Made by a program: the position numbers and the translations under genes
Shown: positions 28,420-33,080 of the stretch, piece by piece
Position numbering within the stretch: position 1 is the stretch's first letter
Layout of the letters: each line of letters opens with the position of its first letter
The notes under the pieces: model-generated
Told to the model about the DNA's origin: nothing
The model's database searches: none
Seen by the model: the letters and a program-made list of their open reading frames with translations, nothing else
DNA from: Mucilaginibacter sp. Bleaf8
Lineage (GTDB): Bacteria; Bacteroidota; Bacteroidia; Sphingobacteriales; Sphingobacteriaceae
DNA: 64,000 nt
Reading direction: 5' to 3'
Assembly: GCF_018390515.1 (NCBI RefSeq)
Contig: NZ_JAHBBK010000005.1
Span: 62,001-126,000, forward strand

Positions 28420-28657
28420 GCCGCATAAAAGTAGGGCAAAACGGGCATAAGCTTATACAGTATTTATCCTTGCCCTATCCATTTTATTAGGAAACATTAT
28501 TGACTACTAAATACCAGATGCATTAGAACAAATGCAACCTGTTAAACCCTATATGTCAATCTGGTAGCTCCAACCCTACTTTCTTTCTTTCAAATCTTAA
28601 AAATTCCTTAACATTTGTTTCATTTTTTTGGAAGTAAATTATTACTTTAAAAATCCG

Positions 28658-28693: not shown

Positions 28694-31600
28694 ATGTACA
28701 AGGAATATAAACAATTAAATCTATCGCAGGTTGGTAAGGATGTGCTGGAGTTCTGGAAACAGAACAACATATTTGAAAAAAGTATCAGCAGCCGTCCGGC
28801 CAGCAACCCTTATACTTTTTACGAAGGACCACCATCTGCCAACGGCATGCCCGGCATTCACCATGCCATGGCCCGTTCTATTAAAGATATTTTTTGCCGT
28901 TACAAAACCCTTAAAGGTTACCAGGTAAAACGTAAAGGCGGCTGGGATACCCACGGCCTCCCTATTGAACTGGCTGTTGAAAAATCATTGGGCATTACCA
29001 AAGATGATATTGGCAAAAAAATATCGATTGAAGATTATAACGAAGCCTGCCGTAAGGAGGTAATGCGCTATACCGACATCTGGAACGACCTGACCGAAAA
29101 GATGGGTTACTGGGTTGACCTCGAAAATCCGTACATCACTTACCAGAACGATTATATTGAAACCCTTTGGTGGATACTGAAACAGCTGTACAACAAAGGC
29201 TGGCTGTATAAAGGTTACACCGTGCAGCCGTACTCCCCTAAATCGGGCACTGGTTTAAGCTCGCACGAGTTGAACCAGCCGGGCACCTATAAAATGGTGA
29301 AAGATACCACCATTACCGCCCAGTTCTTTTTAAAGAATGATCAGCAACATCCGCTGATGCAAACCCTGTTCAGCGAACCGGGTGAAGAAACCGCCATCCT
29401 GGCCTGGACCACTACCCCTTGGACACTGCCATCAAACTGTGCCCTGGCTATTGGCGAGGATATCGACTATGTAAAAATCAGCACGCTTAACCCGTATACT
29501 TTTAAACCGGTAAGCGTAGTGCTGGCTAAAGCGCTGGTTGGCAAATACTTTAAAGCCGAAGGTGAGAATGCTTCGTTTGAAGATTACAAACCCGGCGATA
29601 AAGTGATTCCGTGGGCAGTAAAAGCATCTTTCAAAGGAGCTGACCTGGTTGACTTACGTTACCACCAGCTAATGCCTTATGTTACCAATGATGAGTTGGA
29701 GCAAAAGGCTTTCCGCGTTATCCCGGCCGATTTTGTAACCACCGGGGATGGTACCGGTATCGTACACACCGCATCTGTTTTTGGTGCGGATGACTTTAGA
29801 GCCTGTAAAGAGAACGACGTACCATCAGTAATGGTGCTGGATGAAACGGGCAAAGAAGTGCCGCTGGTAAACAAACAGGGCCGTTTTGTGGATGAAGTAA
29901 CCGACTTTGCCGGCCGCTATGTAAAAGAAGAATACTACAGCCAGGCAGAACGCGACGAACCCGGCTTTAGGGGTACCGACGTACTGATCTCCATCAAACT
30001 GAAAGAAGACAATAAAGCTTTCAACGTACAAAAGTACGAGCACAGCTACCCGCACTCATGGCGTACCGATGAGCCTATTTTATACTATCCGCTGGATAGC
30101 TGGTTCATTAAAACTACTGCGGTTAAAGATAAACTGATTGAGCTGAACAGAACTATCAACTGGAAACCCGAAGCTACCGGTACTGGTCGTTTTGGTAACT
30201 GGTTAGAAAACTTGGTTGACTGGAACTTGTCGCGCTCACGCTATTGGGGTACCCCGCTGCCTATCTGGCGCGAGGAAAACGGCAGCGAAGAAAAATGCAT
30301 TGGCTCCGTTGCTGAGCTGAATGCCGAAATTGAAAAAGCTATTGCAGCCGGCTTTATGCCCGAGGGCTTTAAGCTGGAAGATATGCACCGCCCTTACGTA
30401 GATGATGTAGTGCTGGTATCAGCCAGCGGCAAAAAAATGTTCCGCGAGCCGGATCTGATCGATGTTTGGTTTGATTCGGGTGCTATGCCTTATGCGCAAT
30501 GGCACTTCCCTTTTGAAAATAAAGAAGAGTTTGCCAACGCCTACCCGGCCGATTTTATTGCCGAAGGTGTTGACCAAACCCGCGGCTGGTTCTTTACACT
30601 GCACGCTATTGCAGTTATGCTGAGCGAAGCCAGCGAAGAGGTAAAAGCTGTGAATGAGCAGGTAGGCAATCGTGGTATTGCGTTCAAAAACGTGGTATCA
30701 AACGGATTGGTGCTGGATAAAAACGGTAACAAAATGTCTAAACGTTTAGGCAATGCGGTTGATCCGTTCGAAACCATTGAGCAATACGGTGCTGATGCTG
30801 CCCGCTGGTACATGATCAGCAATGCATCGCCCTGGGATAACCTGAAATTTAATTTGGAAGGTGTGGATGAGGTTCGCCGTAAATTCTTTGGCACGTTGTA
30901 CAACACCTACTCCTTCTTTTCCCTGTATGCCAATATCGATAAATTCGATTATAGCGAACCGGACGTAATGTTAAGCCAGCGCCCAGAAATTGACCGCTGG
31001 ATATTATCGCTGCTGAATACCCTGACCCAGGAGGTTGACGGTTTCTACGCCGACTTTGAACCCACCAAGGCCGCCCGTGCTATACAGGATTTTGTGGATG
31101 CGCACCTGAGCAACTGGTATGTACGCCTGAGCCGCCGCCGCTTCTGGAAATCAGACAACTCTGAAGATAAGATATCGGCTTACCAAACGTTATATACCTG
31201 TTTGGTAACCATCGCCAAATTGATGTCGCCTATCGCGCCATTCTTTGCGGAGCGCTTGTTTAACGACCTGAATACCGCTACCGGTAAAGAACAGTTTGAA
31301 TCCGTTCACCTGGCCGACTTCCCTGTTTACCACACCGAACTGGTGGATAAGGAACTGGAAGAGCGTATGCAACTGGCGCAGGATATCTCATCATTAACCC
31401 TGTCGTTGCGTAAAAAAGTGGGTATCAATGTACGCCAGCCGCTAAGCAAAATTTTACTGCCTATACTGGATAAAAACTTTGAGCACCAGGTAGAAGAGGT
31501 GAAAGACCTGATTTTGTCGGAAACCAACATCAAAACCATTGAGTACATTACCGACACGGCAGGTTTCATTAAAAGAAAAATAAAGCCTAACTTTAAGGCA

Positions 31601-32083
31601 TTAGGCCAAAAAGTAGGCAAGGATATGAAAGTGGTGGCACAGGCCATTACCGAACTATCACAAGAAGACATCGCCAAGCTGGAAAACGAAGGCAATTTTA
31701 CACTTTCAACCGGCCATAACATACTGAATACCGAAGTAGAAATCACTGCCGAAGATGTTCCCGGATGGCAGGTAGCAAATTTAGGCAAACTAACCGTTGC
31801 TTTAGATGTTACCCTAACCGAAGAACTCAAGCAGGAAGGCATCTCGCGCGAACTGATCAATCGCATACAGAACCTGCGTAAGGATAAAGGCTTTGAGGTT
31901 ACAGACAAGATTAATGTACGCCTGAGCGATCATCCGTATATCAGCAATGCCGTAACAAGCAATTTATCCTATATTTGCGCCGAAATATTAGCTACTGATA
32001 TTCAATTGGATAGCGAAGCGTTTGAAGGCGAGACTGTAGTGATCGAAAACAATGAAATTGTAATTGCAATAAGTAAAGTATAA
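28694..32083 (+). CDS. ileS: Isoleucyl-tRNA synthetase, IleRS2-like, with GXHH signature
   Basis: 1129 residues from ATG 28694; the 22-residue TTG extension covers the promoter and is rejected. Charges tRNA-Ile. Class I fold: GPPSANGMPGIHHAMARSIKD holds the signature region, but residues 54-57 read GIHH instead of HxGH. WDTHGLPIE follows; the editing domain has AWTTTPWTLPSN and GDGTGIVHTASVFGADDF; KMSKR is intact (30731-30745). Length, WDTHGLPIE and C-terminal extension resemble the eukaryote-like IleRS2 group, generally mupirocin resistant. dksA starts on the last base of its stop codon. Confidence 0.96.
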   Translation: MYKEYKQLNLSQVGKDVLEFWKQNNIFEKSISSRPASNPYTFYEGPPSANGMPGIHHAMARSIKDIFCRYKTLKGYQVKRKGGWDTHGLPIELAVEKSLGITKDDIGKKISIEDYNEACRKEVMRYTDIWNDLTEKMGYWVDLENPYITYQNDYIETLWWILKQLYNKGWLYKGYTVQPYSPKSGTGLSSHELNQPGTYKMVKDTTITAQFFLKNDQQHPLMQTLFSEPGEETAILAWTTTPWTLPSNCALAIGEDIDYVKISTLNPYTFKPVSVVLAKALVGKYFKAEGENASFEDYKPGDKVIPWAVKASFKGADLVDLRYHQLMPYVTNDELEQKAFRVIPADFVTTGDGTGIVHTASVFGADDFRACKENDVPSVMVLDETGKEVPLVNKQGRFVDEVTDFAGRYVKEEYYSQAERDEPGFRGTDVLISIKLKEDNKAFNVQKYEHSYPHSWRTDEPILYYPLDSWFIKTTAVKDKLIELNRTINWKPEATGTGRFGNWLENLVDWNLSRSRYWGTPLPIWREENGSEEKCIGSVAELNAEIEKAIAAGFMPEGFKLEDMHRPYVDDVVLVSASGKKMFREPDLIDVWFDSGAMPYAQWHFPFENKEEFANAYPADFIAEGVDQTRGWFFTLHAIAVMLSEASEEVKAVNEQVGNRGIAFKNVVSNGLVLDKNGNKMSKRLGNAVDPFETIEQYGADAARWYMISNASPWDNLKFNLEGVDEVRRKFFGTLYNTYSFFSLYANIDKFDYSEPDVMLSQRPEIDRWILSLLNTLTQEVDGFYADFEPTKAARAIQDFVDAHLSNWYVRLSRRRFWKSDNSEDKISAYQTLYTCLVTIAKLMSPIAPFFAERLFNDLNTATGKEQFESVHLADFPVYHTELVDKELEERMQLAQDISSLTLSLRKKVGINVRQPLSKILLPILDKNFEHQVEEVKDLILSETNIKTIEYITDTAGFIKRKIKPNFKALGQKVGKDMKVVAQAITELSQEDIAKLENEGNFTLSTGHNILNTEVEITAEDVPGWQVANLGKLTVALDVTLTEELKQEGISRELINRIQNLRKDKGFEVTDKINVRLSDHPYISNAVTSNLSYICAEILATDIQLDSEAFEGETVVIENNEIVIAISKV

Positions 32084-32469
32084 TGAGCACAACAAACGAA
32101 AGAACCAGATATTCTGATGTAGAATTACAGGAATTCAAAGAAATCATCCTGGATAAAATTCGTGTTGCCCGCGAAGAACTGAACTCGCTGGCATCATCAT
32201 TAAGCAACCCGAACCTGAACGGTACAGATGATACCGCCGGTACTTATAAAACTTTGGAAGACGGCTCGGCTACGCTGGAGAAAGAACAGATTAACCAGTT
32301 GGCAGCACGTCAGAAAAAATTTATAGAGCAGTTAGAAGCTGCCCTGGTACGTATCGAAAATAAAACTTATGGTGTTTGCCGCGAAACCGGTAAACTGATA
32401 CAAAAAGAGCGCCTGCGTGCTGTACCACACACCACGCTAAGCATGGAAGCTAAACTGAAACAGTATTAA
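32083..32469 (+). CDS. TraR/DksA-family protein with degenerate zinc finger
   Basis: 128 residues. A coiled-coil part (EFKEIILDKIRVAREELNSLA, then KEQINQLAARQKKFIEQLEAAL) and the globular end YGVCRETGKLIQKERLRAVP. Of the usual four zinc cysteines only one remains (GVCRETG); the second pair is replaced by PHTTLSMEAK, a form common in Bacteroidota. DksA proteins bind the RNA polymerase secondary channel; whether this form needs ppGpp is unknown. It overlaps ileS and lspA by one base at each end, so the three are translated as an operon. Confidence 0.92.
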   Translation: MSTTNERTRYSDVELQEFKEIILDKIRVAREELNSLASSLSNPNLNGTDDTAGTYKTLEDGSATLEKEQINQLAARQKKFIEQLEAALVRIENKTYGVCRETGKLIQKERLRAVPHTTLSMEAKLKQY

Positions 32470-33080
32470 TGAAAGCTTCTTACGTTAAGCCCTTGTTAGT
32501 GGCTGCGTTAATTGTTATTGTAGACCAGCTGATCAAAACCTGGGTACGCACTAATATGTACCAAGGCCAGGAAATTCATTTTTTGGGGGATCGTGGTATG
32601 CTGCTGTATACCCTCAACAACGGTATGGCCTTTGGCTGGGAACTGGGCGGCGAAGCCGGTAAGCTGGCTTTAACCTTGTTCCGCATTGTAGCAGTACTGG
32701 GTATTGGCTATGCTTTATTGTACCTTATACGCCATAAATACCACCGCGGGCTGGCTATGAACGTAGCCCTGATATTTGCCGGCGCATTAGGTAACATTAT
32801 TGATTCCACTTTTTACGGCGTTTTGTTTCAAAACCGCCCCTTGTTTCAGGGTATGGTAGTGGATATGTTTTATTTCCCGATCATTCAGGGCCATTTGCCA
32901 GGCTGGCTGCCAGCCTGGGCTGGGCCGGGCGAAGAGTTTAAATTCTTCCGCCCCATATTTAACCTGGCTGATGCCGCCATTTCGGTAGGTGTGATTATGA
33001 TTCTGATTTACCAAAACCGGTACTTTAAAAAAGAAGAGGTTGAAGCAAGCAGCCCCCACAGCGAAATAGTTGAAGAATAG
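32469..33080 (+). CDS. lspA: Lipoprotein signal peptidase (SPase II)
   Basis: 203 residues, longer than the usual 160. Four membrane helices. Catalytic aspartates are in LGNIIDSTFYG and FNLADAAISVG; VDQLIKTWVR opens the protein. The extra length is a roughly 40-residue loop between the two aspartate motifs (QNRPLFQGMVVDMFYFPIIQ and GHLPGWLPAWAGPGEE), which I know from other members of this phylum. It cleaves lipoprotein precursors such as those encoded at 3315, 8181, 13861, 49595 and 52373. Last gene of the ileS operon; terminator follows. Confidence 0.95.
   Translation: MKASYVKPLLVAALIVIVDQLIKTWVRTNMYQGQEIHFLGDRGMLLYTLNNGMAFGWELGGEAGKLALTLFRIVAVLGIGYALLYLIRHKYHRGLAMNVALIFAGALGNIIDSTFYGVLFQNRPLFQGMVVDMFYFPIIQGHLPGWLPAWAGPGEEFKFFRPIFNLADAAISVGVIMILIYQNRYFKKEEVEASSPHSEIVEE

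Follow-up and report, generated by a model that had tools for sequence, protein, structure and literature searches.

A swapped class I signature in the only detected isoleucyl-tRNA synthetase of a Mucilaginibacter-like bacterium and in its Bacteroidota relatives

The ileS locus and its synthetic-site motifs

The window, that is, the whole 64,000-nucleotide stretch of DNA analyzed here, carries an open ileS frame encoding isoleucyl-tRNA synthetase (IleRS), followed by genes for a DksA/TraR-type protein and for LspA (Table 1); the same gene order is seen in Riemerella. The IleRS protein scores 967.9 bits with the isoleucine--tRNA ligase model TIGR00392, above the curated cut-off of 621.4, and contains the Pfam domains tRNA-synt_1, Anticodon_1, and DUF5915, the latter (PF19302) spanning residues 937–1129, a region considered against the zinc-site-free C-terminal subdomain SD3 of type 2 enzymes. 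An in-frame TTG at 28628, upstream of the ATG at 28694, is a less likely alternative start. The strand opposite to ileS has a 193-aa ORF (31327–31908, minus strand), which is most likely mechanical.

Table 1. Coordinates of the genes and motifs discussed in the text (window numbering)
Feature	Position	Strand	Remarks
ileS, type 2 isoleucyl-tRNA synthetase	28694..32083	+	1,129 aa from ATG; TIGR00392, Pfam, open frame
GIHH, swapped class I signature (GXHH replacing HXGH)	28853..28864	+	residues 54-57
WDTHGLP, catalytic-domain motif	28943..28963	+	residues 84-90
CP1 editing-domain motif GTGIVHTASVFGADDF	29750..29797	+	residues 353-368; Ser361 replacing the usual Pro
HFPFE, form of the HYPFE signature (eukaryote-like / type 2 IleRS)	30503..30517	+	residues 604-608
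KMSKR (KMSKS loop)	30731..30745	+	residues 680-684
128-aa DksA/TraR-type zinc-finger protein	32083..32469	+	PF01258, 31.1 bits vs cut-off 24.9
lspA, lipoprotein signal peptidase II, ordinary housekeeping neighbor	32469..33080	+	Pfam Peptidase_A8; NCBIfam NF011369 above cut-off

Counted from the ATG, the codons GGC ATT CAC CAT encode GIHH in the place of the class I signature, and this reading agrees with the coordinates and residue numbers of the initial annotation. The tetrapeptide sits within GPPSANGMPGIHHAMARSIKD, which aligns without gaps at the HVGH position of P. megaterium IleRS2 (8C8U, 8C8V) and of 1ile (T. thermophilus). Among solved chains, the top match is 8C8W, to which the window protein aligns column for column; according to the data section of the paper describing it, this chain is P. 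megaterium IleRS2 with the GVHH mutation (PMC10485003). The signature thus begins with Gly and has His as its third residue, as in the G/AXHH motif. The initial annotation had claimed that the first and third positions are exchanged relative to HXGH, and the alignment with characterized IleRS bears this out, as GIHH falls on the HVGH column of the IleRS2 structures. Misalignment of the signature is ruled out by the gapless match to 8C8U, 8C8V, 8C8W, and 1ile.

The other synthetic-site motifs are kept. WDTHGLP, found in all 139 Bacteroidota proteins examined, and KMSKR are both present. The initial annotation described the rest of the active site as intact; this is so for these two motifs, while the editing motif HTASVFGADD departs slightly from the standard, having Ser for the usual Pro. 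Its statement that the gene shows no decay agrees with the open frame and the retained synthetic-site motifs, on which decay of ileS was rejected.

Synthetase type, copy number, and spread of the signature

According to the 2016 paper (PMC4861432 section 21), IleRS1 is marked by Tyr-59 and NKIL, and type 2 enzymes by HYPFE. The window protein reads GPPSANG, with Ser where IleRS1 has Tyr (GPPYANG in the three IleRS1 references). NKILKD is absent from the window protein and from 139/139 relatives, and present in 3/3 IleRS1 references. HFPFE differs from HYPFE by one conservative change, and the three marks together assign the protein to type 2. The H[YF]PFE form occurs in 123 of the 139 Bacteroidota proteins, the rest having NYPFD (13), HFPFD or HYPFD (2), or none of these (1); it is matched in five of the seven type 2 references, and this type 2 mark is not universal. 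The assignment is reproduced by a maximum-likelihood tree of 39 sequences (the window protein, 28 relatives chosen from the 139 complete ones, and 10 references; motif columns included). In it, 36 type 2 rows, including the window protein, are split from the three IleRS1 rows with support 100/100, and the 30 Bacteroidota rows, including Riemerella, form one clade (100/98). The long branches of Sinorhizobium and Nonomuraea are flagged.

To count IleRS genes, the genome (5.03 Mb, 99.7% complete, 17 contigs) was searched with TIGR00392. Of nine matches, the window ileS alone is above the cut-off. The other eight fall in four frames; when one ORF per frame was scanned, these were identified as ValRS, LeuRS (over part of the frame), MetRS, and CysRS, so that the weaker matches do not represent a second IleRS. 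No second IleRS was found by this search of the 17 contigs, in line with the condition set in the initial annotation, that this be the only IleRS of the genome.

The GXHH state is shared with other genomes. GIHH is present in 80/80 closest named loci (Mucilaginibacter, Pedobacter, Daejeonella, Hufsiella, and others); these are close kin, as they are the best 80 of 511 confirmed relatives from the scan. To cover the phylum, we sampled 198 Bacteroidota genomes, including the own genome, with four candidates scored per genome. IleRS was detected at E<=1e-100 in 197 of them, and the exception (G176) has the beginning of ileS at a contig end. No second IleRS at this threshold was found among the four candidates scored in each of the 198 genomes; the two matches listed for G190 are pieces of one frame. 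The motif was read in 124 of the other 197 genomes, namely, the 30 best-scoring, four odd ones (G057, G103, G176, and G190), 30 lower-scoring, and 60 spread over families. All 124 have GXHH, in the forms GIHH (95), GVHH (27), GMHH (1), and GLHH (1). The named loci and the sampled genomes may overlap, and the relatives are not independent. Still, the presence of G-hydrophobic-H-H in 80/80 named relatives and 124/124 other genomes excludes chance or a sequencing artefact, and, together with the lack of a second IleRS in the 198 genomes, means that this ileS encodes an ordinary, apparently phylum-wide housekeeping enzyme. The ileS match L145 (genome G067) contains one in-frame TAG, the only such case among the 30 lower-scoring genomes and possibly a sequencing or assembly error.

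Outside Bacteroidota, two of the nine references with a usable frame carry the swap, Acetoanaerobium (GIHH) and Nonomuraea (GVHH); a Microbacterium reference had no usable frame and was left out. The remaining seven have HXGH: Paenibacillus, Sutcliffiella, the three IleRS1s, and two phage-labelled scaffolds. The latter are fecal records named "Bacteriophage sp." (UNVERIFIED; L227, 8001–11063, and L228, 8001–11099) with full-length type 2 IleRS carrying canonical HIGH; they represent bacterial contamination or else synthetases carried by phages.

The search of plasmid records yielded matches in Parabacteroides, Phocaeicola, Bacteroides, and Prevotella, as well as in Bacillota type 2 relatives, to which the window protein is ∼37–41% identical; with identity this low, details of its active site may differ from those of the Bacillota enzymes. 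In a Riemerella anatipestifer record labelled as a 100-kb plasmid (L229, 14992–18390), ileS, the TraR/DksA gene, lspA, and lepA lie close together. As ileS is surrounded by ordinary housekeeping genes, this "plasmid" is probably a mislabelled chromosomal piece. Plasmid-borne transfer of ileS in Bacteroidota was therefore rejected, the one Riemerella record examined looking chromosomal.

The editing site

The CP1 editing domain of the window protein has Ser361 (29774–29776) in HTASVFGADD, compared with the pattern HxAPxxGxDD. Pro is found at this position in seven of nine non-Bacteroidota references, the other two falling outside the search expression, and in 59/59 other Bacteroidota proteins examined, whereas the 80 close relatives have mostly Ser (72), with Ala and Pro in four each. 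Ser361 may thus reflect a lineage-specific change of the editing site. According to the 2016 paper, the conserved regions of the editing domain are free of relevant substitutions in its 334 sequences (PMC4861432).

As to editing at the synthetic site, the same paper describes S. griseus IleRS2 as devoid of tRNA-dependent pre-transfer editing, an activity that is retained in the type 2 enzyme of yeast (PMC4861432 section 32). S. griseus IleRS2 has a non-canonical signature (PMC10485003 section 6). In the main text of PMC10485003, the word "pre-transfer" is found a single time, among the references; that the swap causes the loss of tRNA-dependent pre-transfer editing is our own suggestion.

Interpretation and comparison with known enzymes

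The reference in the initial annotation to published GXHH-type IleRS2 enzymes that are hyper-resistant to mupirocin proved accurate: a paper with this content exists. It describes G/AXHH as a naturally occurring form of the type 2 enzyme, found in 86 of 379 IleRS sequences and tied to mupirocin hyper-resistance (Brkic et al., 2023, Nat Commun 14:5498, PMC10485003). In type 2 enzymes, the helix tip is displaced in such a way that the third-position His does not push the adenine aside, and the nitrogen of this His stands in for the first His. For the wild-type ALHH enzyme of D. radiodurans, the Ki for mupirocin is 6.6 mM and the kcat 45.5 per second (PMC10485003 Table 1), and swapping the motif in either direction shifts the Ki about 175- to 820-fold. 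By contrast, the engineered GVHH enzyme of T. thermophilus has a Ki of just 35 μM, and that of P. megaterium a Ki of 460 μM with kcat reduced about 10-fold. These Ki values, with a loss of kcat of up to ∼10-fold, show that neither resistance nor activity is set by the motif alone. In IleRS1, the swap abolishes activity (PMC10485003 section 7), and the paper found no natural GXHH in this type.

We are dealing, very probably, with the sole housekeeping type 2 IleRS of a Mucilaginibacter-like bacterium, with a natural GXHH signature and a high mupirocin Ki predicted from a histidine clash. By analogy with the published enzymes, His56, the third residue of the motif, would serve catalysis, and its bulk would clash with mupirocin and result in a high, probably millimolar, Ki. 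The enzyme is predicted to be hyper-resistant to mupirocin; from its status as the only IleRS and from published homologues, we infer that it activates isoleucine.

Two other readings of the gene appear far less plausible. The swap could be a loss of function, with ileS decaying or serving a role besides tRNA charging, as the loss of activity of IleRS1 with the equivalent swap might suggest (PMC10485003 section 7). Against this, activity has been measured for swap-bearing type 2 enzymes (PMC10485003), the gene is single-copy with an open frame and the other synthetic-site motifs kept, and GXHH is present in every relative read, making this reading extremely improbable. Alternatively, ileS could be a horizontally acquired resistance gene of the MupA/MupB kind rather than the native synthetase, and the MupA and MupB models do match the protein along most of its length. 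However, their scores (753.5 and 785 bits, respectively) are far beneath the curated cut-off of 1900, no other IleRS was found in the genome, the DksA/TraR gene and lspA follow ileS as in Riemerella, and the tree position tracks the organism, with the protein nested among those of Mucilaginibacter, Pedobacter, and other Bacteroidota. We consider acquisition to be likewise extremely improbable.

A further alternative concerns the reason for which the swap persists. It could have been kept in Bacteroidota for a cause other than mupirocin, e.g., editing at the synthetic site or ATP use, resistance being a by-product. Recent exposure to mupirocin poorly explains GXHH in every genome read across the phylum, and S. 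griseus IleRS2, with its non-canonical motif (PMC10485003), shows no tRNA-dependent pre-transfer editing (PMC4861432 section 32). On the other hand, this is the single swap-bearing enzyme tested for pre-transfer editing in the part of the literature examined, fixation may be plain inheritance from one ancient event, and the authors of both papers favor antibiotic or environmental pressure (PMC10485003, PMC4861432). On balance, we regard this explanation as somewhat unlikely. More doubtful still is a compound scenario, in which GXHH would have reached fixation a single time, no later than the base of Bacteroidota, giving innate phylum-wide hyper-resistance, and in which the swap would also have removed tRNA-dependent pre-transfer editing, leaving CP1 alone, itself without the near-invariant Pro in most Sphingobacteriaceae examined.

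Returning to the reading of ileS as a housekeeping gene, a change of the class I signature that was once thought intolerable is found in the single isoleucine-charging enzyme detected in this genome and, within the sample, in the phylum, and target-level mupirocin resistance is predicted throughout Bacteroidota. The motif, the mechanism, and the link to resistance are already published, and phylum-wide fixation of GXHH extends that work slightly at most. Neither Bacteroidetes nor Bacteroidota is mentioned in the main texts of PMC10485003 and PMC4861432, and among the papers listed for mupirocin or IleRS in this phylum, none has a title on the swap there; figures, source data, or other papers may well cover it. 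What is added here is the phylum survey, which goes slightly past the searchable text of these papers, and the question of editing.

Of the known systems, the G/AXHH type 2 enzymes (D. radiodurans with ALHH, S. griseus) share with the window IleRS the Gly/Ala at position 1, the His at position 3, the type, and the KMSKS loop; the differences are that the window lineage, Bacteroidota, is absent from the main text of PMC10485003, and that hyper-resistance of the window enzyme is a prediction. IleRS1 (P. megaterium 8C9E, S. aureus 1QU2, and references L234–L236) has the reaction and broad homology in common with it, but forms a separate clade, the three references carrying GPPYANG and NKILKD. Canonical HXGH type 2 enzymes (P. 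megaterium 8C8U/8C8V; 1ile) are of the same type and have the same flanking residues, whereas in the window IleRS residues 1 and 3 of the motif are exchanged. MupA and MupB of staphylococci are type 2 enzymes as well. They resemble the window IleRS over the full length, but its scores with their models are far under the cut-off; moreover, MupA is an acquired extra gene on plasmids, while the window IleRS is native and present as the sole copy.
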